DNA of 39,959 nucleotides from an uncultured Flavobacteriaceae bacterium (GCA_937930675.1 CALHCC010000141.1:1-39959), one strand, 5' to 3'; counted from the first letter of the stretch, positions 4,043 through 35,490 are shown. Numbers and translations are program-made. The notes: generated from the letters alone by a model not told the origin.

Positions 4043-6856
4043 ATGGAATATAATTTTAATGAAATAGAAGCTAAGTGGCAACAATACTGGGCAGAAAATC
4101 AAACATTTAAAGCCGAAAATAATTCGGACAAACCTAAATTTTACGCTTTAGATATGTTTCCCTATCCTTCTGGTGCCGGACTCCATGTAGGACATCCTTT
4201 AGGATATATTGCTTCGGATATTTTTGCACGTTACAAACGTCATCAAGGATACAATGTACTGCATCCGCAAGGGTACGATTCTTTTGGACTGCCTGCTGAG
4301 CAATATGCCATTCAAACCGGTCAACACCCTGCTGTAACTACAGAAACCAATATTAACACCTATAGAAAGCAATTGGATAAAATTGGTTTTTCTTTTGATT
4401 GGTCTCGTGAAATTAGAACCTCTACTCCCGAATATTACAAGCATACACAGTGGATATTTACACAGTTATTTAACAGTTGGTACAACCGTACCACAGATAA
4501 AGCGGAGAAAATAGAAACATTAATTGCATTGTTTGAAACCCATGGAACCACTGAAGTTAGTGCTGTTTGTGATGAAAATGTGATTGAGTTTACAGCAGCA
4601 ACATGGAAAGCATATTCTGAAAAAGAAAAAGAACAGATTTTAGCAAAATATAGATTAACCTATTTATCTGAAACAGAAGTAAACTGGTGTCCTGCACTAG
4701 GAACTGTTTTAGCAAACGATGAAATTATCAATGGATTGTCAGAACGTGGAGGACATCCTGTAGTTCGTAAAAAAATGATGCAATGGTCTATGCGTATTGC
4801 AGCCTATGCACAACGTTTGTTAGATGGTTTAAATACGATAGATTGGCCGCAGCCACTAAAAGATGCTCAAACCAATTGGATTGGAAGAAGTCAAGGAGCT
4901 TCTGTTAGGTTTAAAGTTGATAATCATCCACAATTAGATATTGAAGTGTTTACCACACGCCCTGATACTATTTTTGGAGTTACTTTTATGACCTTGGCTC
5001 CAGAGCACGAGTTGGTTTCACAAATTGTAACGGATGATTGTAAAGCAGCTGTACAAAATTATGTAGAAGCTACAGCCAAACGTTCTGAACGCGATAGAAT
5101 GGCAGATGTAAAAACCATTTCTGGTGCTTTTACAGGAGCGTATGCGATCCATCCGTTTACAGGAGAAAAAATTCAGATTTGGATTGGAGATTACGTATTA
5201 GCTAGTTACGGAACAGGAGCCGTAATGGCAGTACCTTGCGGAGATCAGCGTGATTGGGATTTTGCCCATCATTTTAACATCGAAATCAAAAATATTTTTG
5301 AAGGTATCGATGTTTCAGAAAAAGCTTGTGAAGATAAAACCGCTAAAATTACCAATTCTGAATTTTTATCAGGATTAACCGTTAAAAAAGCGACCAAATT
5401 AGCTATTTACGAATTAGAAAAAGGTGGCTTTGGACAAGGGAAAACAAACTATCGTTTGCGTGATGCTGTCTTTAGTCGTCAGCGTTATTGGGGAGAACCT
5501 TTTCCTGTATATTATGTAGATGGAATGCCTAAAATGATTGATTCACAACATCTACCTATTCTATTACCTGAAGTAGAAAAATACTTACCTACAGAAGATG
5601 GACAACCGCCTTTAGGAAATGCTGAGGTTTGGGCCTGGGACTGCGAAACCGCTAAGGTAGTTCCTTGTGATAAAATAGATCATCAAACTGTGTTTCCATT
5701 GGAGTTAAACACAATGCCAGGTTGGGCAGGTTCTTCTTGGTATTTTAACCGTTATATGGATGCAAACAATACTAACGAATTTGCTAGTAAAGAGGCATTA
5801 GAGTATTGGAAAGAAGTAGACTTGTATTTAGGAGGTTCTGAGCACGCTACGGGTCATTTATTATATGCACGTTTTTGGCAAAAATTCTTATTCGATTTAG
5901 AATATGTACCTGTAGATGAATTTGCAAAAAAACTCATCAACCAAGGAATGATTTTAGGAACTTCTGCTTTTGTATATCGATTAGAAGGAACTCAAACATA
6001 CATATCTAAAGGACTTATTAATGATCAAAAAGTACAACCTATACATGTAGATGTTTCTTTTGTAAATGCATCCAACGAATTAGATACGGAAGCGTTTAAA
6101 GCTTGGCGAGAAGAATATAAAAACGCTGAATTTGTTTTAGAAGAGGGTAAATATATTGTTGGACGTGAGGTAGAAAAAATGTCTAAATCTAAATTTAACG
6201 TCGTCAATCCAGATAGTATTTGTGAAGAATACGGAGCAGATAGTTTACGCTTGTTCGAAATGTTTTTAGGACCCTTAGAGCAATCTAAACCTTGGAATAC
6301 GGCAGGTATTTCCGGATCTCATTCCTTTCTTAAAAAATTATGGAGATTGTACGCCAACGCAAACAACTTTCAGGGAATAGAAGAGGTACCGTCAAAAGAG
6401 GAATTAAAAGTATTGCATAAAACCATTAAAAAAGTACAAGAAGATATAGAGAACTTCTCTTTTAATACCTCTGTAAGTACGTTTATGATTGCCGTAAACG
6501 AATTGTCTGCATTAAAATGTAATAAAAAAGAAATACTAGCACCTTTATTAGTGTTAATTTCTCCTTATGCACCCCATATTACCGAAGAATTATGGGAGAA
6601 ACTAGGAAATACAACCTCTATTTCTACAGCTTCTTTTCCTGTTTTTGATGAAAGTCACTTGGTAGAAAGTTCTAAAGAATATCCTGTTTCATTTAACGGA
6701 AAAATGAGATTTAAATTGGAATTACCTTTAGATTTATCAAAAGAAGAAATTGAAAAAACAGTAATGGCTCACGAAAAAACAGTTGCTCAATTACAAGGAA
6801 GAACTCCTAAAAAAGTAATTATTGTACCTGGTAAAATCATTAATATTGTAGGATAA
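4043..6856 (+). CDS. leuS: Leucyl-tRNA synthetase
   Basis: MFPYPSGAGLHVGHPLGY (HIGH region) and EKMSKSKFNVVNPD (KMSKS); full length, 937 aa. Confidence 0.98.
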   Translation: MEYNFNEIEAKWQQYWAENQTFKAENNSDKPKFYALDMFPYPSGAGLHVGHPLGYIASDIFARYKRHQGYNVLHPQGYDSFGLPAEQYAIQTGQHPAVTTETNINTYRKQLDKIGFSFDWSREIRTSTPEYYKHTQWIFTQLFNSWYNRTTDKAEKIETLIALFETHGTTEVSAVCDENVIEFTAATWKAYSEKEKEQILAKYRLTYLSETEVNWCPALGTVLANDEIINGLSERGGHPVVRKKMMQWSMRIAAYAQRLLDGLNTIDWPQPLKDAQTNWIGRSQGASVRFKVDNHPQLDIEVFTTRPDTIFGVTFMTLAPEHELVSQIVTDDCKAAVQNYVEATAKRSERDRMADVKTISGAFTGAYAIHPFTGEKIQIWIGDYVLASYGTGAVMAVPCGDQRDWDFAHHFNIEIKNIFEGIDVSEKACEDKTAKITNSEFLSGLTVKKATKLAIYELEKGGFGQGKTNYRLRDAVFSRQRYWGEPFPVYYVDGMPKMIDSQHLPILLPEVEKYLPTEDGQPPLGNAEVWAWDCETAKVVPCDKIDHQTVFPLELNTMPGWAGSSWYFNRYMDANNTNEFASKEALEYWKEVDLYLGGSEHATGHLLYARFWQKFLFDLEYVPVDEFAKKLINQGMILGTSAFVYRLEGTQTYISKGLINDQKVQPIHVDVSFVNASNELDTEAFKAWREEYKNAEFVLEEGKYIVGREVEKMSKSKFNVVNPDSICEEYGADSLRLFEMFLGPLEQSKPWNTAGISGSHSFLKKLWRLYANANNFQGIEEVPSKEELKVLHKTIKKVQEDIENFSFNTSVSTFMIAVNELSALKCNKKEILAPLLVLISPYAPHITEELWEKLGNTTSISTASFPVFDESHLVESSKEYPVSFNGKMRFKLELPLDLSKEEIEKTVMAHEKTVAQLQGRTPKKVIIVPGKIINIVG

Positions 6857-16343: not shown

Positions 16344-16378
16344 AAAAAAGGATAAACTATTAAATAGTTTATCCTTTA
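16343..16378 (-). terminator. Intrinsic terminator of the ribosomal protein superoperon, after rplQ
   Basis: Minus strand AAAGGATAAACTATT / AATAGTTTATCCTTT palindrome followed by T7. Confidence 0.88.
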
Positions 16379-16877: not shown

Positions 16878-16893
16878 AATAAAATGATTTTAG

Positions 16894-16936
16894 CTTTCAT
16901 CTTGCATCTACTCTTTTGAGGAGCAAAATATGAAAG
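16894..16936 (-). promoter_or_regulatory. Structured leader immediately upstream of rplQ
   Basis: Minus strand CTTTCAT(ATT)TTGC(TC)CTC-AAAA-GAG(TAGAT)GCAA(G)ATGAAAG, three stacked stems. Confidence 0.5.
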
Positions 16937-16948
16937 GGGTTTATACTA

Positions 16949-16998
16949 TAAAAAAGTAGAAGTTAAATAGTGTTTCTACTTAACTTCTACTACTATTT
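16949..16998 (-). terminator. Terminator/attenuator-like hairpin between rpoA and rplQ
   Basis: Minus strand AGTAGAAGTTAA-N13-TTAACTTCTACT (12-bp perfect stem) followed by TTTTTT; alternative pairing AAATAGT/ACTATTT. Confidence 0.65.
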
Positions 16999-17003
16999 TT
17001 AGA

Positions 17004-17996
17004 CTAGTCCTTGTCTAATTTGTATTTACTTAAATCCATTCCGAAATGTAAATTCTTCACATTTACCAATTCATCTAACTCTGTTAAAGATTTTTTACCA
17101 AAGTTTCTAAATTTCATTAAGTCGTTTTTGTTAAAAGATACTAAATCTCCTAATGTTTCTACTTCAGCAGCTTTTAAACAGTTTAAAGCTCTTACAGATA
17201 AATCCATGTCAACTAACTTAGTTTTCAATAATTGTCTCATGTGTAAAGACTCCTCATCGTAAGTTTCTGTTCTTGCAATTTCATCCGCCTCTAAAGTAAT
17301 ACGCTCATCAGAGAATAACATAAAGTGGTGAATTAAAATTTTAGCAGCTTCTGTTAATGCATCCTTAGGATTGATAGAACCATCTGTTACTACATCAAAA
17401 ACTAATTTTTCGTAGTCCGTCTTTTGTTCTACACGGTAATTTTCTACAGCATATTTTACATTCTTAATAGGTGTGTAAATAGAATCTGTAAAAATGGTCC
17501 CCATAGGCACATTTACCTTTTTGTTTTCTTCAGCAGGAACAAATCCTCTTCCCTTTTCAATTGTAATATCAAAACTTACCGCTACAGAGCTATCTAAGTT
17601 ACAAATTACTAAATCTGGGTTTAAAACCTGAAATCCTGAAGTAAACTTTTGTATATCACCAGCTGTGATTTGATTCTGACCTGATACAGATACTGAAACA
17701 GTTTCTTTGTCAGTGTCTTCTATCTGTTGCTTAAAACGTACTTGTTTTAAGTTTAGAATAATTTCAGTAACATCTTCTACCACACCTTCTACAGTTGAGA
17801 ACTCATGCTCAACTCCTTCGATGCGTAAAGATGTAATAGCGAAACCTTCTAAAGAAGACAATAATACTCTTCTCAAAGCATTACCTACTGTTAAACCAAA
17901 ACCTGGTTCTAACGGTCTGAATTCGAATTTACCTTCAAAGTCGGTAGACTCGATCATGATAACTTTATCTGGTTTCTGAAAATTTAATATTGCCAT
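17004..17996 (-). CDS. rpoA: DNA-directed RNA polymerase subunit alpha
   Basis: [20 protein letters not shown] and alpha-[40 protein letters not shown]. Confidence 0.99.
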
Positions 17997-18016
17997 AGCT
18001 AACTGGTGTCTATTGA

Positions 18017-18622
18017 TTATTTCGAGTACAACTCGACGATTAATTGCTCTTTGATGTTTTCTGGAATTTGAAGTCTTTCAGGTACAGTAACAAAAGTTCC
18101 TGTTTTCGTATCAGAATTCCAAGTTAACCACTCATAAACAGCAGAAGAAGTAGCTAAACTACTTTCTATTACAGTAAGTGATTTAGATTTTTCTCTTACA
18201 CCAACAACATCACCAGGTTTCAATTGGTAAGAAGGAATGTTAACGATTTCTCCGTTAACGGTAATATGTCTGTGAGATACTAATTGACGTGCTCCGTTTC
18301 TAGAATTAGACAATCCCATACGGAATACAGTGTTGTCTAAACGAGATTCACACAATTGTAATAAAACCTCACCAGTAATACCTTTGCTTGCAGAAGCTTT
18401 TTTAAATAAATTAGAGAATTGACGCTCTAAAATACCATACGTATACTTTGCTTTTTGCTTTTCTTGTAACTGTAAAGAATATTCAGAACGTTTTGCTCTT
18501 TTCTTTGCTAACCCGTGTTGTCCAGGTGCGTAGTTACGTTTTTCAAAAGACTTGTCATCTCCAAAAATAGCTTCTCCAAACTTACGAGCTATTTTGGTTT
18601 TAGGTCCGTTATATCTTGCCAT
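18017..18622 (-). CDS. rpsD: 30S ribosomal protein S4
   Basis: [17 protein letters not shown]...[20 protein letters not shown]4 domain. Confidence 0.99.
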
Positions 18623-18635
18623 AGTAAAAAATTAA

Positions 18636-18692
18636 AAAATTGGCAGTTATGAATTAAGGCTTAGTCCTTCGATAACTTTAATTGCCAATTTT
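18636..18692 (-). promoter_or_regulatory. Multi-stem RNA structure upstream of rpsD (candidate S4 autoregulatory leader)
   Basis: Outer 10-bp AAAATTGGCA/TGCCAATTTT, middle 5-bp GTTAT/ATAAC, inner AAGG/CCTT with loop; 14 nt before the rpsD start. Confidence 0.65.
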
Positions 18693-18708
18693 AGTGTTAA
18701 AAAATTAA

Positions 18709-19101
18709 TTAGATTCTTCTTCTTTTAGGAGGACGACATCCATTATGTGGTAATGGAGTAACATCAATAATTTCTGATACTTCAATTCCAGCATTGTGAA
18801 TAGTACGGATAGCAGATTCTCTACCGTTTCCTGGTCCTTTTACGTAAACTTTTACTTTACGTAATCCTGCTTCGTGTGCTACAGCAGCACAATCTTCAGC
18901 AGCAGTTTGTGCAGCATAAGGAGTGTTCTTTTTAGATCCACGGAATCCCATTTTACCTGCAGATGACCATGAGATTACATCTCCTTTTTTATTAGTTAAA
19001 GAAATGATGATGTTGTTAAATGATGCAGTAATGTGTGCTTCACCAACCGACTCAACAATAACTTTACGCTTTTTAGCGGTCTTTGTATTAGATTTAGCCA
19101 T
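18709..19101 (-). CDS. rpsK: 30S ribosomal protein S11
   Basis: [44 protein letters not shown]. Confidence 0.99.
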
Positions 19102-19108
19102 AACTTAA

Positions 19109-19474
19109 TTATTTCTTTTTGTTCGCTACAGTTTTACGTTTACCCTTTCTTGTTCTAGAGTTATTTTTTGTTCTTTGACCTCTTAATGGTAATCCAGCTC
19201 TGTGACGGATTCCTCTAAAACATCCGATATCCATTAAACGCTTAATGTTTAATTGAATTTCTGAACGTAACTCACCTTCAATAGTGAAAGTACCTGCTTG
19301 TTCACGAATCGCTCCGATTTGAGCATCCGTCCAATCTTGAACCTTGATGTTCTCATCTACTCCAGCGTTTGCTAAAATCTCTTTAGCTCTAGTTCTACCA
19401 ATTCCAAAAATATAAGTTAACGCGATTACACCACGTTTGTTCTTTGGAATGTCAATACCTGAAATTCTTGCCAT
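19109..19474 (-). CDS. rpsM: 30S ribosomal protein S13
   Basis: [30 protein letters not shown]. Confidence 0.99.
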
Positions 19475-19476
19475 AA

Positions 19477-19593
19477 CTAACCTTGTCTTTGTTTGAATCT
19501 AGGATTCTTTTTATTGATTACATATAATCTGCCTTTTCTACGCACAATTTTGCACTCGGCACTTCTCTTTTTTATTGATGCTCTAACTTTCAT
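19477..19593 (-). CDS. rpmJ: 50S ribosomal protein L36 (not in the ORF track)
   Basis: Translated by hand: [38 protein letters not shown], 38 aa, between infA and rpsM. Confidence 0.96.
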
Positions 19594-19604
19594 CGTATGA
19601 TATT

Positions 19605-19820
19605 TTAGTATCTATAAGTAATTCGAGCCTTCGATAAATCGTAAGGACTCATTTCTAACTTAACTTTATCTCCTGGTAATAACTTAATGTAGTGCATACG
19701 CATTTTACCAGAAATATGTGCAGTTACAATATGACCATTCTCTAATTCAACTCTAAACATTGCATTAGATAAAGCCTCTGTAATTGTACCGTCTTGTTGT
19801 ATTGACGCTTGTTTTGCCAT
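19605..19820 (-). CDS. infA: Translation initiation factor IF-1
   Basis: [61 protein letters not shown]. Confidence 0.99.
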
Positions 19821-19822
19821 AA

Positions 19823-21157
19823 TTAAATTGTCGATCTTCTTTTAGTTCCTGTTTTCATTAACCCATCATAATGTCTATTTAGTAAATATGAGTTAATTTG
19901 TTGGATGGTGTCTATTGCAACACCTACCATAATAATTAACGAAGTACCTCCATAAAATAGTGCCCAATTTTGTTGCACACCAAAATGAACAACAATGGCT
20001 GGGAAAACAGCCAGCAAAGCTAAGAAAATAGATCCAGGTAATGTAATTTTTGACAAAATACTATCTAATTTTTCTGCAGTCTCAACACCTGGTGCAGTTC
20101 CTGGTATAAATCCTCCACTTTTTTTAAGGTCATCAGCCATTTTATTTGTAGGAATTGTAATTGCCGTATAGAAATAACTAAATACAATAATCAATAAACA
20201 AAATAAAATATTATAGCCCCAACCGTTAAAATCAGATAAAGCATTAAATACAGTTTGCAAAGTTCCATCAGAGTTTCTAGCAATTAATCCTGGTACAAAC
20301 ATAATTGCTTGTGCAAAAATAATAGGCATTACTCCAGCAGAGTTTAACTTTAATGGAATGTATTGTCTTGCTCCTTGAGCATCGTCAATCGTTCCTACTA
20401 CTGTACGTCTTGCATATTGAACTGCAATTTTACGAACTGCTGTTACTAGTAATATGCTTGCCAAAATAATTGCCAACCATACAATAATTTCTAAAAGAAT
20501 CATCATGAAACCTCCAGAACCAGCTGCGTATTTAGATGTTAATTCTTGCATAAATGCACCTGGGAATCTCGCAATAATACCAATCATAATTAATAATGAA
20601 ATACCATTACCAATTCCTTTTTCAGTAATACGCTCTCCTAGCCACATTGCAAAAACAGTACCTGCAGTTAATAAGATCATTGAAGAAATCCAGAACATTC
20701 CACCTTGTCCTAATAAGTATGCCTCTTGAGGAATACCTAAGGTTGGTAAACTTGTTAAATAAGCTCCTCCCTGTACGATGGTAATACCAATGGTTAACCA
20801 TCGAGTAATTTGGTTGATCTTATTTCTTCCGCTCTCACCATCTTTTTGTAGTTTTTGCAAATAAGGAACCGCAATTCCCATTAATTGTACTACAATAGAT
20901 GCTGATATATATGGCATAATCCCAAGAGCCATAATAGAAGCTCTTGAGAATGCACCACCTGTAAATGCGCTTAATAAACCTAAAAGACCATCAGAAGTTT
21001 TACTTCCTAATGCTGTTAATTGTTGAGGATCTATACCTGGCAATGTTACCTGAGCCATAAATCTATAAACAGCCATCAACCCTAAGGTCAATAGAATTTT
21101 ACCTTTTAACTCATCAATTGACCAAATGTCTTTTATAGTTTGGATAAATTTCTTCAT
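19823..21157 (-). CDS. secY: Preprotein translocase subunit SecY
   Basis: Multi-[40 protein letters not shown]. Confidence 0.98.
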
Positions 21158-21173
21158 CTACTTAATCTTGTTA

Positions 21174-21623
21174 TTATAAAGTTACAGCTTCTCCTCCAGC
21201 AGCTTCGATAGCAGCTTTTGCAGTTCCTGTAAATTTGTGAGCAGTTACGTTTAATTTAGCTTTTAATTCACCACCACCTAATATTTTTACTAAGTCGTTT
21301 TTACCCGCTAAACCATTTTCAATCAATACAGCTAAGTTAACTGTATCTGTAACCTTACCATTTTCAACTAAAGTTTGTAACTTGTCTAAATTGATACCAT
21401 TATACTCCTTACGGTTAATATTGGTAAATCCAAACTTAGGTACTCTTCTTTGTAATGGCATTTGACCTCCTTCAAATCCTATTTTTCTAGAATATCCAGA
21501 ACGAGATTTTGCACCCTTGTGTCCTCTTGTAGCAGTACCTCCATGACCAGAACCTTCTCCTCTAGCTATACGTTTACTACTTTTTACAGAACCCTTAGCA
21601 GGTTTTAAATTATTTAAACTCAT
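21174..21623 (-). CDS. rplO: 50S ribosomal protein L15
   Basis: RIARGEGSGHGGTATRGHKGAKSRSG...FEGGQMPLQRRVPKFGF. Confidence 0.98.
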   Translation of the reverse strand: MSLNNLKPAKGSVKSSKRIARGEGSGHGGTATRGHKGAKSRSGYSRKIGFEGGQMPLQRRVPKFGFTNINRKEYNGINLDKLQTLVENGKVTDTVNLAVLIENGLAGKNDLVKILGGGELKAKLNVTAHKFTGTAKAAIEAAGGEAVTL

Positions 21624-21634
21624 CTTTTTATAAC

Positions 21635-21817
21635 TTATTTAATTTCTTCTACAGAAATTAAGTGTTTAACTTTATTAACCATTCCTATAATTGATGGAGT
21701 AGCATTGTGTTCTACCACCTTTCCAATTCTAGTTAAACCTAACGCTTCTAATGTTCTTTTTTGAACTTGCGTACGGTTAATTTGGCTCTTTACTTGTGTT
21801 AATTTAATTTTTTCCAT
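21635..21817 (-). CDS. rpmD: 50S ribosomal protein L30 (start at MEKIKL preferred; track starts at 21826)
   Basis: IKLTQVKSQINRTQVQKRTLEALGLTRIGKVVEHNATPSIIGMVNKVKHLISVEE. Confidence 0.96.
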   Translation of the reverse strand: MEKIKLTQVKSQINRTQVQKRTLEALGLTRIGKVVEHNATPSIIGMVNKVKHLISVEEIK

Positions 21818-21828
21818 GGTATCCAATA

Positions 21829-22350
21829 TTAACCGTTAAATACTTTGTCTAAAGAAATACCTCTTTCCTTTGCCACTTGCTCAGGGTTTCTTAATTGTAA
21901 TAAAGCATCAAAAGTTGCTTTTACAACGTTGTGAGGGTTTGATGATCCTTGAGACTTAGATAATACATCGTGTACACCTACTGATTCTAATACCGCACGT
22001 ACAGCACCACCAGCAATAACTCCGGTACCATGAGATGCAGGTAATAACAATACCTTAGATCCACCAAATTTACCTTTTTGTTCGTGAGGTAACGTTGCGT
22101 TGATTAATGGAATACGAACTAAGCTTTTCTTAGCTTCTTCTACAGCCTTAGCTATTGCAGATGCAACATCTAAAGATTTACCAGATCCGTAACCTACTAC
22201 ACCTTCTCCGTTTCCTACTACTACAATAGCAGAAAATCCAAAAGTACGTCCACCTTTTGTAACTTTAGTTACACGGTTTACAGCTACTAAGCGATCTGTT
22301 AACTCTAATCCGCTTGGCTTAACTCTTTCTACGTTTTTATATCCTTGCAT
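21829..22350 (-). CDS. rpsE: 30S ribosomal protein S5
   Basis: [39 protein letters not shown]. Confidence 0.99.
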
Positions 22351-22362
22351 AATATAATTTTC

Positions 22363-22716
22363 TTAAAATTTTAAACCAGCTTCTCTAGCTGCTTCAGCTA
22401 ATGCTTTAACTCTACCATGGTATAAATAACCATTTCTATCAAATGCAACAGTCTCTACACCTGCAGCAGATGCCTTTTCAGCAATAGATTTACCTACTAA
22501 CGCAGCAACTTCAATTTTAGTTCCTTTTGCATCAATTTCTTTATCTCTTGACGATACAGAAGCTAATGTTACTCCTTCGTTATCATCAACTAATTGAGCG
22601 TAAATTTCTTTATTACTTCTAAATACAGATAATCTTGGTTTAGATGCTGTACCTGTAGAAATTTTTCTAATTCTACGCTTAATTCTTTGTCTTCTTTCAA
22701 GCTTTGATAATGCCAT
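22363..22716 (-). CDS. rplR: 50S ribosomal protein L18
   Basis: [20 protein letters not shown]...[26 protein letters not shown]. Confidence 0.98.
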
Positions 22717-22727
22717 AATACTATAAA

Positions 22728-23273
22728 TTATGCAGATTTACCTGCTTTTCTTCTTAATTCTTCACCTACAAACTTAATTCCTTTTCCTTTGTACGGTTCA
22801 GGCTTACGGAAAGAACGAATCTTTGCTGCTACTTGACCTACCAACTGCTTATCGAAAGAAGTAAGTTTAACGATTGGGTTTTTCCCTTTTTCAGAAATGG
22901 TTTCAACTTTAACCTCTGGAGCAATACTCAACACAATATTGTGAGAGAATCCAATAGCTAAATCTAAAACTTGTCCTTGGTTAGATGCTCTGTATCCTAC
23001 CCCTACTAATTCTAATTCTTTAGTCCATCCATTAGATACACCTTCAATCATGTTATTGATTAAAGCTCTGTACAATCCATGTTTAGCTTTATGAGTTTTA
23101 GATTCAGTTGAACGATTTAATACTAAAGATCCATCTTCTTCTTTAATTGTGATTCCGTCTGTAATCACCTGAGATAATTCTCCTAATTTTCCTTTTACAG
23201 TAACTGTGTCTCCGTTAATAGTAACAGTAACACCAGTTGGAATTGCGATTGGGCTTTTTCCTATTCTTGACAT
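22728..23273 (-). CDS. rplF: 50S ribosomal protein L6
   Basis: [15 protein letters not shown]...[26 protein letters not shown]. Confidence 0.99.
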
Positions 23274-23286
23274 ACTATTCTATTTT

Positions 23287-23685
23287 TTAGTAAACGTGAC
23301 AAATTACTTCACCACCAATATTTTGACTCTTAGCTTGCTTAGAGGTCATTACTCCTTTAGAAGTAGACACAATAGCAATACCTAATCCGTTTAATACACG
23401 TGGTAAATCTTCTACACCAACATATTTACGTAATCCTGGCGTAGAAATACGCTCTATTTTCTTGATTACTGATTCGTTAGTTTCTGGATTGTACTTTAAA
23501 GCTATTTTGATCGTACCTTGAGCAGTACCTTCTTCAAATTTATAACTTAAGATGTATCCTTGGTCAAATAAAATCTCTGTGATTGCTTTTTTAACCTTTG
23601 ATGCAGGAATTTCCACAACTCTGTGTCCTGCTAAATAAGCATTTCTTACTCTTGTTAAGTAATCTGCTATTGGATCTGTATACAT
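23287..23685 (-). CDS. rpsH: 30S ribosomal protein S8
   Basis: YTDPIADYLTRVRNAYLAGH...GIAIVSTSKGVMTSKQAKSQNIGGEVICHVY. Confidence 0.99.
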   Translation of the reverse strand: MYTDPIADYLTRVRNAYLAGHRVVEIPASKVKKAITEILFDQGYILSYKFEEGTAQGTIKIALKYNPETNESVIKKIERISTPGLRKYVGVEDLPRVLNGLGIAIVSTSKGVMTSKQAKSQNIGGEVICHVY

Positions 23686-23700
23686 AATTATTTGTATTGG

Positions 23701-23743
23701 TTTAGATTATCACCCCAAAACAAGTTTGGGGCTAGCATCTAAA
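23701..23743 (-). promoter_or_regulatory. Two-tier hairpin in the rpsN-rpsH spacer (candidate r-protein operator)
   Basis: Minus strand TTTAGAT-GCTAG-CCCCAAA-CTTGT-TTTGGGG-TGATA-ATCTAAA; both 7-bp stems perfect. Confidence 0.6.
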
Positions 23744-23758
23744 TTAATTCTTAAAATT

Positions 23759-24028
23759 TTACCAACTTGCTTTTGTTACACCAGGAATTAATCCTTGGTT
23801 TGCCATTTCACGGAAAGTAACACGAGAAATACCAAATTGTCTCATATAACCTTTTGGTCTTCCTGTTAACTTACAACGATTATGAGTACGTACAGGAGAA
23901 GCGTTTTTAGGCAACTTCTGTAATCCTTCGTAATCACCAGCTTCTTTTAAAGCTTTACGTTTTTCAGCGTATTTAGCAACTGTTTTAGCTCTTTTTCTCT
24001 CACGAGCTTTCATTGATTCTTTAGCCAT
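23759..24028 (-). CDS. rpsN: 30S ribosomal protein S14 (long, zinc-free form)
   Basis: [25 protein letters not shown]...[41 protein letters not shown]. Confidence 0.99.
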
Positions 24029-24030
24029 GA

Positions 24031-24582
24031 TTAGTTCTTTTTAAATGGTAAACCTAATTCTGTTAATAATGATTTAGCTTCTTTATCGGTAGCAGCAGAT
24101 GTTACAAAAGTAATGTCCATACCTCCAATTTTTTTCACTTGATCAATATTGATTTCTGGGAAAATAATTTGCTCAGTAACTCCTAAGTTGTAATTTCCTC
24201 TTCCATCAAAACCAGTAGCTTTAATACCGTTAAAATCTCTTACACGTGGCAATGAAGCTGTAATTAATCTATCTAAGAATTCGTACATTTTAATTCCACG
24301 TAAAGTAACTCTTGCCCCAATTGGCATTCCTTTACGTAATTTAAATGTTGCGATATCTTTTTTAGACAACGTTGCAACCGCTTTTTGTCCAGAAATTGTA
24401 GTTAACTCTTCTACAGCGTACTCTACTAATTTCTTATCTGCAATAGCAGCACCAACACCTTTAGAGATTACAATTTTCTCTAATTTTGGTACTTGCATAA
24501 TATTGCTATATCCGTACTCTTCAGTTAAGGCAGCCTTAATTCTGTTAGTGTACTCTTGTTTAAGTCTTGGAATATAACTCAT
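24031..24582 (-). CDS. rplE: 50S ribosomal protein L5
   Basis: [19 protein letters not shown]...; start moved from 24630 because the extension lies inside the rplX 3' end. Confidence 0.98.
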
Positions 24583-24583
24583 A

Positions 24584-24892
24584 TTAAATAGCTTTTTCTG
24601 ATTTTTTAGAAAAACGCACTTTTTTACCATCTTCTACTCTATAACCAACTTTAGTAATGTTTCCATCTTCTAAAATAGCTAAGTTAGAAATTGGCAAAGC
24701 AGCTTCTTTCTTTACAATTCCACCTTGAGGGCTTTGAGCACTTGGCTTAGTGTGCTTAGAAACTAAGTTTACACCTTCTACAATTGCTTTGTTAGTAGCA
24801 GTAATAATTTCTACTACTTTCCCTTCTTTACCTTTTTGATCTCCAGCAATAACTCTTACTGTATCTCCTGATTTAATTTTAATCTTTGCCAT
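24584..24892 (-). CDS. rplX: 50S ribosomal protein L24
   Basis: [27 protein letters not shown] motif. Confidence 0.98.
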
Positions 24893-24904
24893 TGTTTACA
24901 AATA

Positions 24905-25273
24905 TTAAAGCACCTCAGGTGCTAATGATACAATTTTCATGAATTGCTTATCACGAAGTTCTCTTGCTACAGGTCCAAATACACGTGTTCCAGACATTTC
25001 TCCAGTCGCATTTAACAATACACAAGCATTGTCATCAAAACGAATGTAAGAACCGTCTTTTCTTCGTACCTCTTTAGACGTACGAACAACAACAGCTTTA
25101 AATACTTGACCTTTTTTAGCGTTACCATTTGGAGTTGATGACTTTACAGTTACCACAATTTTATCTCCAATAGATGCATAACGCTTTCCTGTTCCTCCTA
25201 AAACACGGATCACTAAGACCTCTTTAGCTCCAGTGTTATCTGCTACGTTTAATCTTGATTCTGTTTGTAACAT
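24905..25273 (-). CDS. rplN: 50S ribosomal protein L14
   Basis: [27 protein letters not shown]. Confidence 0.99.
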
Positions 25274-25274
25274 A

Positions 25275-25532
25275 CTATTTCGCTCTTTCTAGGATTTCTA
25301 CTAATCTCCAACGTTTAGATTTACTTAAAGGTCTTGTTTCCATGATTCTTACAGTATCTCCTTCGTTACAGTCGTTTTGCTCATCGTGTGCAACGTACTT
25401 TTTCGTATTTAATACGAACTTTCCGTACATTGGGTGTTTTACTTTTTTTACCTCAGAAACAACAATAGACTTGTCCATTTTGTTACTAGATACAACACCA
25501 ATTCTTTCTTTTCTAAGATTTCTATTCTCCAT
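25275..25532 (-). CDS. rpsQ: 30S ribosomal protein S17
   Basis: [34 protein letters not shown]. Confidence 0.98.
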
Positions 25533-25544
25533 CTTGTAAAATAC

Positions 25545-25730
25545 TTATTGTCTGTTAGTTAACTCAGTAGCTACTCTTGCTACAGTTTTTCTAAGCGCTC
25601 TTAACTCTAAAGGATTCTCTAATGGAGAAATAGCATGAGCCATCTTAAGATCAGTATAGTTCTTTTTCAGAGAAGTTAATTTCTCTTGTAAGTCTGCAAC
25701 TGATAATTCTTTAATTTCTGATTGTTTCAT
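25545..25730 (-). CDS. rpmC: 50S ribosomal protein L29
   Basis: MKQSEIKELSVADLQEKLTSLKKNYTDLKMAHAISPLENPLELRALRKTVARVATEL. Confidence 0.98.
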   Translation of the reverse strand: MKQSEIKELSVADLQEKLTSLKKNYTDLKMAHAISPLENPLELRALRKTVARVATELTNRQ

Positions 25731-25741
25731 TCTCTTAGATA

Positions 25742-26170
25742 TTAAGCGTTATCATAATCTCTCGCAACAACGAACTTAGTTTTAACTGGCATTTTTTGAG
25801 CTGTTAAGCGTAATGCTTCTTTAGCTACATCGTGAGGTACACCTCCGATTTCAAACAATATTCTACCAGGTTTTACTACTGCTACAAAATATTCAGGAGC
25901 ACCTTTACCTTTACCCATACGTACTTCTAAAGGTTTCTTTGTAATAGGTTTGTCTGGAAAAATTTTAATCCATAACTGTCCTTCTCTTTTCATATAACGT
26001 GTCGCAGCAATACGACCTGCTTCTATTTGTCTTGAAGTAATTAAAGCTTGTTCTAAAGATTTGATACCAAACATACCAAAAGCAAGTTGGTTTCCTCTTT
26101 GAGAATTTCCTTTTAAATTACCTTTACCTTTCTGTACCTTACGGTACTTTACTCTTTTAGGCTGTAACAT
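25742..26170 (-). CDS. rplP: 50S ribosomal protein L16
   Basis: [16 protein letters not shown]...[45 protein letters not shown]. Confidence 0.99.
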
Positions 26171-26196
26171 TTCTAAATTCTAATTTTTGTGAAAAA

Positions 26197-26916
26197 TTAT
26201 TTTCTTCTACGAGGTCCTTTCTTACCTGAGTTGTTTCCACCTTTTCCTCCTGTCTTTTTAGACAGACCTACTAATGGAGATAACTCACGTTTTCCGTATA
26301 CCTCACCTTTCATAATCCACACCTTCACCCCGATTCTACCGTAAGTTGTATGTGCTTCAACTAAAGCATAATCAATATCAGCTCTAAAAGTAGATAAAGG
26401 AATTCTACCTTCTTTATAGTGCTCTGAACGTGCCATTTCTGCACCGTTTAAACGACCTGAAATTTGGATTTTAATCCCTTCAGCATTCATACGCATTGTT
26501 CCTGCAATAGCCATTTTAATTGCACGTCTGTAAGAAATTCTATTTTCTATTTGACGAGCAACACTTGCAGCAACTAACTGAGCGTCTAATTCTGGACGTT
26601 TAATTTCAAAAATATTGATTTGTACTTCGTTCCCAGTTAATTTCTTTAACTCCTCTTTTAACTTGTCTACCTCTTGTCCGCCTTTCCCGATAATAATACC
26701 TGGTCTAGCAGTAGTGATAGTAACGGTTACAAGTTTAAGTGTACGTTCAATAATTATTCTAGAAACACTAGCTTTATATAATCTTGCGTTTAAGTACTTT
26801 CTTATCTTATTGTCTTCAGCAATTTTATCTCCGTAGTCATTACCTCCGTACCAGTTTGAGTCCCATCCTCTGATGATTCCTAAACGATTTCCTATTGGAT
26901 TAGTTTTTTGTCCCAT
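26197..26916 (-). CDS. rpsC: 30S ribosomal protein S3
   Basis: [25 protein letters not shown]...[14 protein letters not shown]. Confidence 0.99.
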
Positions 26917-26928
26917 TTCTACTTATGA

Positions 26929-27336
26929 TTATTTGCTTTCAACATTTTTACTTCCCAACACAATAGTTACGTGATTAGAACGCTTACGGATTCTATGTGC
27001 ACGACCTTGTGGAGCTGGTCTTAATCTCTTTAACATTGCTGCAGAATCTACAGTAATTGTTTTAACATATAAATTAGCTTCTTCTATACTAGCGTCTTCA
27101 TTTTTTGCTTGCCAATTTGCAATAGCAGACAATAATAATTTTTCTACGTTTATAGATGCTTCTTTAGAGCTAAACTTCAAGATTTGTAAAGCTTTTTCAA
27201 CTTCTACTCCTCTTACTAAATCAGCCACCAATCTCATTTTTCTTGGTGATGTAGGACAACCAGTCAATTTAGCAAAAGCAACATTTTTCTTTGCTTCCTT
27301 GATCTGTTTTGCCATATTATGTTTACGAACTCCCAT
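26929..27336 (-). CDS. rplV: 50S ribosomal protein L22
   Basis: [14 protein letters not shown]...[24 protein letters not shown]. Confidence 0.98.
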
Positions 27337-27342
27337 ATCCTA

Positions 27343-27624
27343 CTATTTTTTTCCTTTGTTTTTCTTGTCTGCACCGTGACCTCTAAAGGTACGTGTTGGT
27401 GAAAACTCTCCTAATTTATGACCTACCATGTTTTCAGTAACATATACTGGTACAAATGTTCTTCCGTTGTGAACTCCAATAGTTTGACCAACGAAATCTG
27501 GAGTAATCATAGAAGCTCTTGACCAAGTCTTGATTACTTCTTTGCTTCCTGCCTCAGCGTTAGCAATAACTCTTTTCTCAAGTTTATGAAAAATGAAAGG
27601 TCCTTTCTTTAATGAACGTGCCAT
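27343..27624 (-). CDS. rpsS: 30S ribosomal protein S19
   Basis: [19 protein letters not shown]...[33 protein letters not shown]. Confidence 0.99.
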
Positions 27625-27630
27625 GTCTTC

Positions 27631-28458
27631 TTATTTTTTTCTACGTTCTAAAATATACTTATTACTCGCTTTTGTCTTAGATCTAGTCTTGTATCCCTTA
27701 GCAGGTATACCGTTTCTTGATCTTGGGTGACCTCCTGAAGAACGTCCTTCACCACCACCCATTGGGTGATCTACAGGGTTCATTCTTACAGCGTTTGTTC
27801 TTGGTCTTCTACCTAACCATCTAGATCTACCAGCTTTACCAGAAACTAGTAATTGGTGATCTGAGTTGGAAACAACTCCGATAGTTGCGATACAAGTTAA
27901 CAAGATCAATCTTGTTTCACCAGACGGTAACTTAACAGTAGCATACTTTCCTTCTTTTGCCATTAACTGAGCAAAAGAACCTGCAGAACGAGCCATAACA
28001 GCTCCTTGACCTGGTCTTAATTCGATACAACAAATTGTTGTACCTAAAGGAATGTTTGCCAAAGGCATTGCATTACCTACGTCTGGAGTAACAGCCTCTT
28101 GACCGCTTACGATAGTTTGACCAACCTGTAAACCAGCTTGTGCAATTACATATCTTTTTTCTCCATCAGTATATTCTACTAATGCAATAAATGCAGTACG
28201 ATTTGGATCGTACTCAATTGTTTTAACAGTTGCTTCAACACCAAATTTATCTCTATTAAAATCGATAATACGGTATCTCTTTTTATGACCACCACCTACG
28301 TAGCGCATTGTCATTCTACCACTGTTGTTTCGACCTCCAGACCTTTTTTTCGGTGCCAATAATGACTTTTCCGGCTTATCAGTAGTAATAGCGTCGAACC
28401 CATTTACTACTCTAAAACGCTGACCTGGTGTGATTGGTTTTAATTTTCTAACTGACAT
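27631..28458 (-). CDS. rplB: 50S ribosomal protein L2
   Basis: [20 protein letters not shown]...[17 protein letters not shown]. Confidence 0.99.
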
Positions 28459-28482
28459 GTTAAAATTTAAAATTATTTATAA

Positions 28483-28773
28483 TTAAATATTGTTGTAAAA
28501 ATCAATATTCTCTCCTTCAGCTACATCAATAATAGCTTTTTTATATGCAGAAATTTTCGACTCAACTACACCTTTTTTGGTGAATTTTGTCGAACGCTTT
28601 ACTGGATATATCATTGTTCTTACCTTCTCAACAGAAACTCCGTAAGTAGCTTCAATAGCTTCTTTGATTTCTATTTTGTTAGCTTTCATATTTACAACAA
28701 AAGCATAACGATTTAATAATTCGCTATCTTTTGTTGCTTTTTCTGTAATAATAGGTTTTATTAAAATACTCAT
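28483..28773 (-). CDS. rplW: 50S ribosomal protein L23
   Basis: IIKPIITEKATKDSELLNRYAFVVNMKANKIEIKEAIEATYGV. Confidence 0.98.
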   Translation of the reverse strand: MSILIKPIITEKATKDSELLNRYAFVVNMKANKIEIKEAIEATYGVSVEKVRTMIYPVKRSTKFTKKGVVESKISAYKKAIIDVAEGENIDFYNNI

Positions 28774-28782
28774 ATCGGCACC

Positions 28783-29412
28783 CTATTTACTTAAATTAGC
28801 TTCAATATCTGCAATTGCACCTTCCAACAAAACAACTGTACCAGCATTCAATACTTTGTAAGTGTTTAATTCTGAAGAAGTTACAACATCAGACCTCTTT
28901 AAATTTCGTGAAGACAAATATACATTATTATTTGAACCACCCAAGACAAATAGAGATTTTTTGTTCTCTAACTCTAAAGCTTTCAATACGTTAATAAAAT
29001 TCTTTGTCTTTGGAGCATCAAAATTAAAGTCTTCTAAAACAATAATATTTGATTCTTTTGCTTGTAAACTAAAAGCAGATTTTCTAGCTAATCTCTTTAA
29101 GTTTTTGTTTAATTTAAAAGAATAATCTCTGTTTCTTGGTCCAAATACTCTACCTCCTCCTCTAAAAACTGGAGATTTGATAGATCCTGCACGTGCAGTA
29201 CCTGTACCTTTTTGTTTCTTAATTTTTCTTGTAGACCCAGCAATCTCAGCTCTTTCTTTAGCTTTGTGAGTACCTTGTCTTTTGTTTGCCAAATGTTGCT
29301 TTACATCTAAGTAAACCGCGTGATCATTTGGTTCTATAGCGAATACCGCATCAGATAACTCTACCTGACGACCTGTATCTTTTCCTGTATAATCTAAAAC
29401 TGCTACTTTCAT
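28783..29412 (-). CDS. rplD: 50S ribosomal protein L4
   Basis: [39 protein letters not shown]. Confidence 0.98.
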
Positions 29413-30026
29413 TATTTCTCGATAGTTAAGTAAGAGTTTTTAGCACCAGGAACACATCCTTTTACTACAATTAAGTTCTTGTCTGCAACAACTTTTAAAA
29501 CTCTTAAGTTTTGAACTTTAACGGTATCTCCACCCATTCTTCCTGCCATACGCATTCCTTTGAATACTCTTGCAGGATAAGATGCAGCACCAATAGATCC
29601 TGGAGCTCTTAAACGGTTGTGTTGACCGTGAGTTGCTTGACCAACTCCAGCAAATCCATGACGTTTTACAACCCCTTGGAAACCTTTACCTTTAGACACA
29701 CCACTTACATCTACAAATTCTCCTTCAGAAAATAGATCTACACCTACAGTGTCACCTAAATTCAACTCCTCATCAAAACTAAATTCAACAACTTTCTTCT
29801 TAGAAGTCGTACCTGCTTTTGCAAAGTGACCTTGCAATGCTTTGGTAGTATTCTTTTCAGACTTGTCATCGAAACCTAATTGGATCGCAGAATAACCATC
29901 TACTTCCTCAGTTCTGACTTGGGTAACTACACATGGACCAGCTTGAATTACAGTACAAGGAATATTTTTCCCGTTCTCATCAAAAATGCTAGTCATTCCG
30001 ATTTTTTTTCCTATTAACCCAGACAT
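29412..30026 (-). CDS. rplC: 50S ribosomal protein L3
   Basis: [17 protein letters not shown]...[16 protein letters not shown]...[15 protein letters not shown]. Confidence 0.98.
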
Positions 30027-30067
30027 TATTATTAATTAATTATTGTTATTAAATTCTATATTTTGCA

Positions 30068-30120
30068 TTAGACACAAAAACCGGCCTAGTATTTTTACTA
30101 GGCTGGCTTTATCATCTAAT
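30068..30120 (-). promoter_or_regulatory. Two-tier hairpin in the rpsJ-rplC spacer (candidate attenuator/operator)
   Basis: Minus strand outer ATTAGA/TCTAAT; inner AAAGCCAGCCTAGTA-AAAA-TACTAGGCCGGTTTT with one A-C mismatch. Confidence 0.6.
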
Positions 30121-30129
30121 TAAGTTTTA

Positions 30130-30435
30130 TCAAACTTTAATTTCTACTTCTACTCCAGAAGGTAATTCCAATTTCATTAAAGCATCAATAGTCTTAGAAG
30201 AAGAACTATAGATGTCTAACAATCTTTTATAAGAAGATAATTGGAACTGCTCTCTAGATTTTTTGTTTACGTGTGGAGAACGTAATACTGTAAAAATCTT
30301 TTTATTTGTTGGTAAAGGAATTGGTCCGTTTACAACAGCACCTGTAGACTTTACCGTCTTTACGATTTTCTCAGCAGATTTATCTACTAAGTTGTAATCG
30401 TAAGACTTTAATTTTATTCTGATTTTTTGACTCAT
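30130..30435 (-). CDS. rpsJ: 30S ribosomal protein S10
   Basis: [43 protein letters not shown]. Confidence 0.99.
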
Positions 30436-30452
30436 TTTCTAATGTTTTAAAA

Positions 30453-32576
30453 TTATGCTTTAGAAGCAGCAATTACATCCTCTGATACGTTTTTAGGCGT
30501 TTCAGCATAATGAGAGAACGACATTGTAGACGTTGCTCTACCTGAAGATAATGTACGTAATGTGGTTACATATCCGAACATTTCTGATAAAGGAACTTCT
30601 GCTTTTACAACTTTAGCACCTCCACGGTCACTCATATCGTTTACTTGACCTCTACGTCTGTTTAAGTCACCAACGATATCTCCCATGTTTTCTTCTGGAG
30701 TTAATACTTCTAATAACATGATTGGCTCTAAGATAACAGCACCTGCCGCTTTTGCACAAGCTTTGTATCCCATTTTAGCAGCTAATTCAAATGATAATGC
30801 ATCAGAATCCACTGGGTGAAAAGAACCATCAATTAATCTTACTTTTAATGAATCCATTACGAATCCAGCTAAAGGTCCATTTTGCATAGACTCTTTGAAT
30901 CCTTTTTCTACAGCAGGAATAAATTCCTTAGGAATACGTCCTCCCTTGATTTCATCAACGAATTGTAATCCTGCACCTTCGAAATCTTCATCAACAGGTC
31001 CCATTTCAAATACAATATCACCAAACTTACCACGTCCACCAGATTGCTTTTTATAAGTTTCTCTGTGCTCTGTAGATCTTGTTACAGCTTCTTTGTACTC
31101 TACCTGAGGTTCACCTTGGTTTACTTCCACCTTAAACTCACGTTTCATACGGTCAACTAATACTTCTAAGTGCAATTCTCCCATTCCTGAGATTACTGTT
31201 TGTCCAGAAGCTTCATCAGTCTTAACTGTAAATGTAGGGTCTTCTTCAGCTAATTTACCTAAAGCGATACCCATTTTATCTACATCAGCCTTTGTTTTAG
31301 GCTCAATAGAAATACCAATTACTGGATCTGGGAAATCCATAGATTCCAATACAATTGGTGCATCTAAAGAAGACATAGTATCTCCAGTCTTAATATCTTT
31401 AAACCCTACTGCAGCTCCGATATCTCCAGCTTCGATAAAATCGATTGCTTTTTGCTCGTTAGCGTGCATTTGGTAAATACGAGAAATACGCTCTTTTTTA
31501 CCTGAACGGTTGTTTAAAATATAAGAACCAGCATCTAAACGACCAGAATAAGCACGGAAGAAAGCCAAACGACCTACGAAAGGATCGGTAGCAATTTTAA
31601 ATGCCAATGCAGCGAAAGAATCTTTTGCATCTGGTTTTCTTGTAGTTTCTTCTTCTGTATCAGGATTTGTACCTACAATACTATCTCTATCTAAAGGAGA
31701 TGGTAAGTAACGACACACAGCATCTAACAAGAACTGAACTCCTTTGTTTTTAAAAGAAGATCCACAAATCATAGGTATGATTGCCATATCCATAACTGCA
31801 GCTCTTAAAGCAGCATGTACTTCTTCTTCTGTAATAGAGTTTTCATCTTCCATGAATTTCTCTAATAACTCCTCATCGTAAGAAGCAACTTCTTCGATCA
31901 ATTTAGCACGAGCTTCTGCAGCTTCATCTACTAAATCTTCAGGAATATCAATTACATCAAAAGTAGCTCCTTTAGTTTCATCATGCCAAATAATAGCACG
32001 GTTCTTCACTAAATCTACAACACCCCTAAAATCGTTTTCTTCACCAATTGGTAAAACGATTTCAACAGCGTTAGAACCTAACATTTCTTTTACTTGAGTA
32101 CATACATTTGCAAAGTTAGATCCTTGACGGTCCATTTTGTTTACAAACCCAATACGAGGTACTCTATAGTTGTCTGCTAATCTCCAGTTCGTTTCTGATT
32201 GAGGCTCAACACCATCAACTGCACTAAATAAGAATACTAAACCATCTAATACACGTAAAGAACGGTTTACCTCAACGGTAAAATCAACGTGACCTGGAGT
32301 ATCAATAATATTAAAGTGGTACCCTTTAGCATCTGCTGTTGGTTGTCCATTTTCTACAGGAAACTGCCATGTACAAGTTGTTGCAGCAGAGGTAATGGTA
32401 ATACCTCTTTCTTGCTCTTGTTCCATCCAGTCCATGGTAGCTGCACCATCATGAACTTCTCCAATTTTGTGAGAAACTCCTGTATAATACAATATACGTT
32501 CTGTTGTAGTGGTTTTTCCTGCATCAATATGTGCAGCAATACCAATATTTCTAGTTAATTTTAAATCTCTAGCCAT
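30453..32576 (-). CDS. fusA: Elongation factor G
   Basis: [57 protein letters not shown]. Confidence 0.99.
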
Positions 32577-32581
32577 TTCTA

Positions 32582-33061
32582 TTAAAATCTAAAGTGTGAA
32601 AATGCTTTGTTAGCTTCTGCCATTTTGTGAACATCCACTCTCTTTTTAACAGCAGCTCCTTCTTCTTTAGCAGCAGCTAATACTTCTGCAGCTAATTTTT
32701 GAGCCATAGTTTTTTCATTTCTCTTTCTAGAGTAAGAAATTAACCATTTCATTGCCATAGAAACCTTACGGTCTGGTCTAATTGGCATTGGAATTTGAAA
32801 AGTAGCACCCCCTACACGACGGCTACGTACTTCTACTTGAGGCATTACGTTAGATAATGCATCTTTCCATATTTCTAATGAAGATTTTTCTTCATCTTCT
32901 CCTTTTTTGTTTTCTACAATCTCTAATGCATCGTAAAAAATCTTGAACGCTGTAGATTTCTTTCCATCCCACATTAAGTTATTCACAAAACGTGTCACCA
33001 ACTGATCGTTAAATTTTGGATCTGGTAAAAGAACTCTCTTTTTTGCTCTTCTTTTTCTCAT
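32582..33061 (-). CDS. rpsG: 30S ribosomal protein S7
   Basis: [46 protein letters not shown]. Confidence 0.99.
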
Positions 33062-33090
33062 GTTTTCTTAAGAATTTAAAAGATTATAGA

Positions 33091-33465
33091 TTATTTCTTT
33101 GGACGCTTAGTTCCATACTTAGATCTACGTTGAGTTCTTCCCTCAACACCAGCAGTATCTAAAGCTCCACGTACTACGTGGTACTTTACCCCTGGTAAAT
33201 CTTTTACTCTTCCTCCCCTTACTAATACTATCGAGTGCTCTTGTAGGTTATGTCCTTCTCCTGGAATGTAAGCGTTTATCTCATTACCGTTTGTTAATCT
33301 AACACGCGCTACTTTACGCATTGCTGAGTTAGGTTTTTTAGGTGTTGTAGTATAAACACGTGTACATACTCCACGACGTTGTGGACATGCCTTCAAAGCA
33401 GCCGATTTACTCTTCTTAGTAACTTGGGCTCTTCCTTTTCTAACTAATTGTTGAATAGTTGGCAT
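33091..33465 (-). CDS. rpsL: 30S ribosomal protein S12
   Basis: [11 protein letters not shown]...[31 protein letters not shown]. Confidence 0.99.
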
Positions 33466-33496
33466 AAATTAATATATATAACGTTTTAATATTTTC

Positions 33497-33518
33497 CCCT
33501 TGGAATTCTCTCCAAGGG
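33497..33518 (-). promoter_or_regulatory. 5'-terminal leader hairpin of the str-S10-spc-alpha transcript
   Basis: CCCTTGGA-ATTCTC-TCCAAGGG on plus; lies immediately after the predicted TSS on minus. Confidence 0.5.
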
Positions 33519-33522
33519 TCTG

Positions 33523-33553
33523 CAAAAGTAGTAATTTTTTCTAAATATTCAAA
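33523..33553 (-). promoter_or_regulatory. Promoter of the ribosomal protein superoperon: TTTG-N19-TACTTTTG (minus strand)
   Basis: Exact match to the Bacteroidota -33 TTTG / -7 TAnnTTTG consensus with 19-nt spacing. Confidence 0.75.
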
Positions 33554-35306: not shown

Positions 35307-35363
35307 AAACTAATCAATTCTGACATATACTATATGATAAAGAAGACTGAAATATTTTGTGTA

Positions 35364-35490
35364 AAGGATTGCAGCGACATCCTTTTGGTTTTTACAACTT
35401 AATTTGTGCAACAAAGTACCATTATGTATAGGTTACAAAACCAAAAGATACAGCGAAAAGCCTGACCCGATAGGGATACACCCAAAAAAC
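35364..35490 (+). ncRNA. Structured intergenic RNA-like element upstream of rlmB (strand uncertain)
   Basis: AAAGGAT-TGCAGCGAC-ATCCTTT hairpin; TTGGTTTT/AAAACCAA stem; repeated motif GAT(tg/a)CAGCGA; CCC-GATA-GGG hairpin. Confidence 0.5.

Follow-up and report, generated by a model that had tools for sequence, protein, structure and literature searches.

Our analysis indicates that a flavobacterial ribosomal protein superoperon is likely to be one gene array in which RNA leaders, lying in the four long spacers, divide the genes into blocks under separate control. The array was studied in a window of 39,959 nucleotides (nt), the whole stretch of DNA analysed, from an uncultured Flavobacteriaceae bacterium (GCA_937930675.1 CALHCC010000141.1:1-39959). 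Its minus strand carries, from 33465 to 16407, the genes rpsL-rpsG-fusA-rpsJ-rplC-rplD-rplW-rplB-rpsS-rplV-rpsC-rplP-rpmC-rpsQ-rplN-rplX-rplE-rpsN-rpsH-rplF-rplR-rpsE-rpmD-rplO-secY-infA-rpmJ-rpsM-rpsK-rpsD-rpoA-rplQ. One leader, before rpsD, belongs to a catalogued family; conserved, covarying motifs stand before rplQ, rpsH and rplC in most Flavobacteriaceae.

Four long spacers shared across the family

A sequence-only reading of this DNA had given lengths of 86, 73, 103 and 126 nt for the rpsK-rpsD, rpsN-rpsH, rpsJ-rplC and rpoA-rplQ spacers, 0-30 nt for the rest, and a folded RNA in each long one. The lengths are exactly right, with all remaining superoperon spacers of the window at 29 nt or less; an apparent 47-nt overlap disappears because rplE and rpmD truly start downstream of the starts of their longest open reading frames. 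The folds were equally borne out by comparison with dinucleotide shuffles (z scores of -5.6 for rpoA-rplQ, -5.1 for rpsJ-rplC, -3.8 for rpsN-rpsH and -2.8 for rpsK-rpsD).

We gathered about 180 superoperon loci, about 140 of them from Flavobacteriaceae, and located the genes in each. In the family loci, the same four of the 31 spacers as in the window stand out by median length (rpsJ-rplC 153, rpsN-rpsH 66, rpsK-rpsD 90 and rpoA-rplQ 60 nt), and the medians of the other 27 do not exceed 23 nt. The four-long-spacer pattern is common to the family and not peculiar to the genome of the window.

Table 1. Spacers, leaders and signals of the superoperon, in window coordinates
Feature	Position	Strand	Length or evidence
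Promoter match TTTG-N19-TACTTTTG upstream of rpsL	33523..33553	-	sequence
Hairpin at 5' end of presumed operon transcript, just downstream of promoter match	33497..33518	-	z -3.0
Long spacer rpsJ-rplC	30027-30129	-	103 nt
rpsJ-rplC hairpin, genus version (core 30084-30103, then CGGUUUUUGU), intrinsic-terminator-like putative attenuator	30067..30120	-	z -5.1; terminator scan
Long spacer rpsN-rpsH	23686-23758	-	73 nt
rpsN-rpsH hairpin, genus version	23701..23743	-	z -3.8
Long spacer rpsK-rpsD	18623-18708	-	86 nt
Full compound hairpin of rpsK-rpsD	18636..18692	-	z -2.8
S4-Flavobacteria leader RF03141 (core of rpsK-rpsD spacer)	18645..18677	-	cmscan 47.2 bits, gathering 35.2, E 1.1e-6
Long spacer rpoA-rplQ	16878-17003	-	126 nt
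Private perfect 16-bp hairpin then UUUUUU (U6), between rpoA and candidate L17 leader; terminator-like	16955..16991	-	terminator scan
Candidate rplQ (L17) leader, three-part hairpin	16879..16938	-	model R1, 66 bits, E 1.4e-10
Stems of candidate rplQ leader	P1 16936-16930/16900-16894; P2 16927-16923/16905-16901; P3 16920-16918/16913-16911	-	
Terminator-like hairpin downstream of rplQ, operon end	16347..16377	-	terminator scan

Catalogued and candidate leaders

The rpsK-rpsD element is the catalogued S4-Flavobacteria leader RF03141. It lies directly upstream of rpsD, which starts at 18622, ahead of rpsD-rpoA-rplQ, the setting in which the family was described by Eckert and Weinberg 2020 (PMC7247131). 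The core in the window is without differences from that family, scores above its cut-off and has the same genes downstream; only the enclosing outer stem AAAAUUGGCA/UGCCAAUUUU falls outside the 33-position model. The spacer is present in all six congeners of the window. The sequence-only reading had named an S4 flavobacterial leader as an example of such families in Rfam. By cmscan this spacer is the one already covered, and no other ribosomal protein leader of Rfam matches in the operon of the window. The L17, L4, S8 and S10 leader families of Rfam 15 gave no match in the canonical family loci scanned (seven at the gathering cut-off, three at a relaxed threshold), where RF03141 was the sole ribosomal protein leader. 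As a separate observation, the S4 leader of loci L012, L027, L062, L102, L117, L155 and L162 is closely preceded, within the rpsK-rpsD spacer, by a TANNTTTG promoter and a terminator-like hairpin, and the alpha block of these loci is therefore probably transcribed on its own.

The other three spacers were represented by covariance models, R1 for the rpoA-rplQ motif, R2 for rpsN-rpsH and R3 for rpsJ-rplC, which were searched in 61 family genomes. Each motif occurs nearly always once per genome and at its fixed operon site (in 33, 43 and 50 genomes, respectively). Under a phylogeny-aware null, 4 of 15 pairs of R1, 8 of 13 of R2 and 7 of 20 of R3 covary at E<0.05, and shuffle and slide controls were concordant. 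All three motifs share what is generally expected of ribosomal leaders, namely a constant position upstream of the same ribosomal protein gene and a secondary structure supported by covariation. The three are without an Rfam match in the scanned loci, and the literature searched yielded no description of them. A Flavobacterium psychrophilum transcriptome study (PMC9723704) reports structured 5' RNAs of Flavobacteriaceae that lack both an assignment and Rfam hits, and its list of structured 5' regions might include some of the three. With RF03141 known, these would be three new leader motifs, of a known general kind, in an unusual arrangement.

The rplQ motif, about 59 nt long, consists in most family members of a stem NNNNYAU/AURRNNNN, an A-N bulge, an invariant UUUGC/GCAAG stem and a variable CUC/GAG stem. 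Its five inner pairs are invariant, and R1 matches, one in each genome that has any, invariably precede rplQ. In the window this conserved compound hairpin (16894-16936) is the second of two separate elements, following a private 16-bp hairpin that is missing in six congeners, whose rpoA-rplQ spacers measure 63-64 nt; the private hairpin was rejected as a repeat element, as the genome lacks a good second copy. Of 83 loci with the motif, 68 have the triplet GUC immediately ahead of the rplQ start codon, and this GUC could pair with GAC within AUGAGAC; in 82 loci without the motif, GUC does not rank among the six most frequent triplets at this place. Because it adjoins the start codon and accompanies the motif, GUC points to control of translation start, on which the rplQ leader probably acts; the triplet is missing in the genus of the window. 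Like the L17 leader of Actinobacteria and Proteobacteria (PMC7247131), the motif precedes rplQ as the only ribosomal protein gene and has L17 as its predicted ligand, but it belongs to another lineage, has other conserved bases and no Rfam match. A second conserved type of rplQ leader, GCATAATTCCCGATCCC..GGTTGATCGACGGTATGC, was seen in the rpoA-rplQ spacers of L129, L131 and L136 (Pontibacter), L109 (Daejeonella), L108, L116 and L119 (Pedobacter), and L122 and L125 (Sphingobacterium); it is near-identical in Pontibacter and Daejeonella, and its outer stem is altered on both sides in Pedobacter and Sphingobacterium.

Before rpsH, most of the family has an A-bulged hairpin, GGUNNN-A-RGUU-(stem-loop)-AA-AACY-NNNACC; the 43 R2 matches came with one weak additional match. 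The same architecture, as GAUAGC-A-GGUC...GGAAACC-ACUAUC, is found in Sphingobacteriales loci. The rpsN-rpsH spacer measures at least 59 nt in loci with R2; without R2 it is almost always 15-24 nt, except in the genus of the window, in its relative L003 and in L045, whose spacer, judged by eye, looks like a missed R2 copy. The genus version of the hairpin has a UUUAGAU/AUCUAAA stem, a fixed GCUA/GAUA internal loop and a variable upper stem; it is near-invariant in seven genomes of the genus, with two compensated pairs in the upper stem. By eye, the loop shares an AUA strand with the S8 site in helix 21 of 16S ribosomal RNA (rRNA), a likeness that we rejected: one core base differs, two are inserted, and the scores are not above those of shuffles.

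The rpsJ-rplC motif, again in most of the family, starts with ACAUGUCC-stem-GGAAAAACGG, the inner part often showing tandem G-A/A-G oppositions; after this structured domain comes an intrinsic terminator, CAGGGUUGAA...UUGACCCUG-U6. R3 gave one strong match in each of its 50 genomes; beyond the family it matched three of 99 genomes drawn evenly from the class, weakly (34-44 bits) and in other orders. Ahead of the terminator, an AAAAUAC strand can pair with GUAUUUU in the terminator loop. This antiterminator pairing scores 14.85 in the native combinations as against 13.11 +/- 0.19 when partners are swapped between species, a difference of about nine standard deviations under a swap that ignores relatedness. 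Compensatory changes (AAATATAAT/ATTATATTT, AAAAATG/CATTTTT and AAAGAAAA/TTTTCTTT) accompany it, and one of its pairs, 58-76, also emerges from a blind phylogeny-aware scan (E 0.047). A pseudoknot of the two strands was rejected and, because the connecting loop is too short, the antiterminator and terminator pairings would be mutually exclusive. Structured domain, terminator and competing antiterminator together form what reads as the layout of an attenuator. A likeness of the rplC leader to 23S rRNA (AUGUCC..GGGAAA) was discarded as chance, since the pairing differs.

In the genus of the window this site is occupied by another hairpin, shared by the window and five of the six congeners; its upper part, with GGUUUUUGUGU behind it, resembles a terminator. 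It is near-invariant in six genomes of the genus and has two compensated upper-stem pairs. The rpsJ-rplC spacers of L003 and L146 (475 and 481 nt) have a leader of about 200 nt before rplC, along with a TTATCTTTGC promoter box and a hairpin resembling a terminator, clearly so in L146; these two leaders are partly alike and differ from the family motif as well as from the other congeners. In L063, R3 also matches weakly at 4928-5008 (32.8 bits); this second match, too, is a terminator-like hairpin, located upstream of the main rplC leader and preceding a TATACTTTT stretch.

Proposed regulation and competing explanations

Judging from these sequences, ribosomal proteins most likely switch off separate blocks of the operon via the leader RNAs. 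By the rule that the ligand is a regulated gene's product already known as a leader ligand, or that of the only ribosomal protein gene (PMC7247131), we infer that the leaders before rpsD, rplQ, rpsH and rplC sense S4, L17, S8 and L4, most strongly for S4 and L17 and less so for L4 and S8; the direction of regulation is presumed in the same way. The S8 leader would control the genes from rpsH onwards, and the L4 leader those from rplC-rplD onwards. In most of the family the latter would act by transcription attenuation, the terminator competing with an upstream A-rich antiterminator strand that pairs with its loop. The rplQ leader would act on translation start via the GUC before the start codon. 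In the genus of the window other hairpins would take over at the rplC and rpsH sites, that at rplC still being terminator-like.

In E. coli, S4 acts at rpsM. The E. coli L4 site lies before rpsJ (S10 operon), the S8 site between rplX and rplE (spc) and the S7 site between rpsL and rpsG (str) (PMC2704228). The flavobacterial candidate points lie instead after rpsJ, after rpsN and after rpsK, each shifted downstream relative to E. coli, and before rplQ. The E. coli S10 leader combines L4- and NusA-dependent attenuation with control of translation. The candidate L4 leader would share with it the terminator-based attenuation of the rplC-rplD block, with L4 encoded downstream, but it follows rpsJ (30027-30129), differs in structure and has its own terminator/antiterminator pairing. 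The candidate S8 site, likewise inside the spc gene block, lies between rpsN and rpsH and is without sequence likeness to helix 21. One array could in this way keep feedback circuits that E. coli distributes over the str, S10, spc and alpha operons, and the three covariation-supported families together with the S4 leader would cover most of the ribosomal array of Flavobacteriaceae. In the rplC leader, terminator and antiterminator form a defined pair open to testing with purified RNA polymerase and L4.

Several points weigh against this regulatory reading. Binding of the downstream-encoded protein and lowered expression are predictions for the three motifs. Mimicry of rRNA is frequent among ribosomal leaders, though not obligatory; at the sequence level, none of the three resembles the 16S or 23S rRNA of a relative above shuffles, and ligands are consequently assigned by position only. 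The covariation E-values come from our own re-implementation of a phylogeny-aware null and not from R-scape. R2 and R3 have no match at E 0.1 or better in the window or the congeners searched, and two compensated pairs each, among six to seven close relatives, are the extent of covariation in the genus hairpins. The earlier suggestion of several independent control points therefore stands for the S4 leader and for the family elements before rplQ, rpsH and rplC, which are conserved and covary, but less so for the window's own rpsN-rpsH and rpsJ-rplC hairpins, which are genus-specific and unmatched to the family motifs.

We consider it unlikely that internal promoters and terminators merely split the array into transcription units, the hairpins being terminators or 5'-end stabilisers without protein feedback. 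Terminator-like hairpins do occur at 30103-30084 and 16991-16955, and a terminator with a promoter is found in the rpsJ-rplC spacers of L003 and L146 and in the rpsK-rpsD spacers of Algibacter-like loci. In other species, three of the long spacers show an excess of promoter-like sites (13 against 3.4 expected, 6 against 0.5 and 17 against 0.6), as would be expected of leaders that also start transcripts; each leader may do so in lineages with such a site in the same spacer. However, the conserved parts exceed terminators, including invariant loop and bulge bases and an S4 leader catalogued in Rfam. The rpsN-rpsH and rpoA-rplQ stems covary without any terminator, rpoA-rplQ spacers have no promoter-like site, and by eye no TANNTTTG promoter was seen in the rpsJ-rplC spacer of the window.

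That the window's rpsN-rpsH and rpsJ-rplC hairpins are functionless leftovers or chance insertions is improbable. They are confined to this genus (partly also in L003) and match no family motif, and other sporadic spacer hairpins exist; yet they are near-invariant in six to seven genomes, internal loops included, with compensated pairs, and the genus did not shrink its rpsN-rpsH spacer to about 20 nt as did most lineages losing the motif. By comparison of sequences, the two family motifs appear to have been replaced by the genus's own hairpins, which presumably function as leaders, the sites apparently being kept while the RNA changes. Such a replacement provides an opportunity to study the exchange of ribosomal protein sensors at a fixed site. 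Perhaps sensors at fixed sites turn over more generally, with up to six in some lineages (before rplC, rpsH, rpsK, rpsD, rpoA and rplQ) and two swapped for unrelated hairpins in this genus, possibly with the same ligands; we hold this only tentatively.

We consider it very improbable that the hairpins serve in mRNA processing or stability, for example as RNase III sites, and thereby fix the ratios between parts of a single long transcript. The stability of hairpins that separate parts of what is presumably a polycistronic mRNA, and the perfect 16-bp hairpin specific to the window, would suit such a role, but the conservation of bulges and internal loops beside the stems is typical of protein recognition, and processing does not need terminator/antiterminator competition before rplC.

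Operon ends and additional elements

The promoter match upstream of rpsL follows a flavobacterial consensus, TAnnTTTG, given in PMC9723704. A sigma-70 scan found fewer promoters than in shuffles and is unsuited to this phylum. The 5'-end hairpin that had been proposed as a further control point is present, but this short element at the transcript start shows no features of a ribosomal protein site. Upstream of rpsL, the TANNTTTGC promoter box is immediately followed in most loci by a very short CCC..GGG hairpin, whose stem sequence varies between genera.

Two further spacers hold conserved elements in other loci. In about 40 of them (e.g. L027, L102 and L162; about 105 nt), the rpsM-rpsK spacer contains a conserved GGAAUCUGUUUGAAAU..GGUUUAGGAUUC within longer imperfect inverted repeats before rpsK. 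The rpsD-rpoA spacer of about 37 further loci of the family (e.g. L102, L063 and L175; about 95 nt) contains a highly conserved element of two stems stacked on each other, in which pairs covary (E<0.05), and a loop, CUUCUUC, complementary to a GAAGAA shortly ahead of the rpoA start codon; this element is probably a regulatory pseudoknot. It matched nothing in Rfam for the scanned loci and is absent from the window, whose rpsD-rpoA spacer is 20 nt. Outside the superoperon, the plus strand of the window carries a Flavo-1 RNA (RF01705, 52.5 bits) at 35357-35471.

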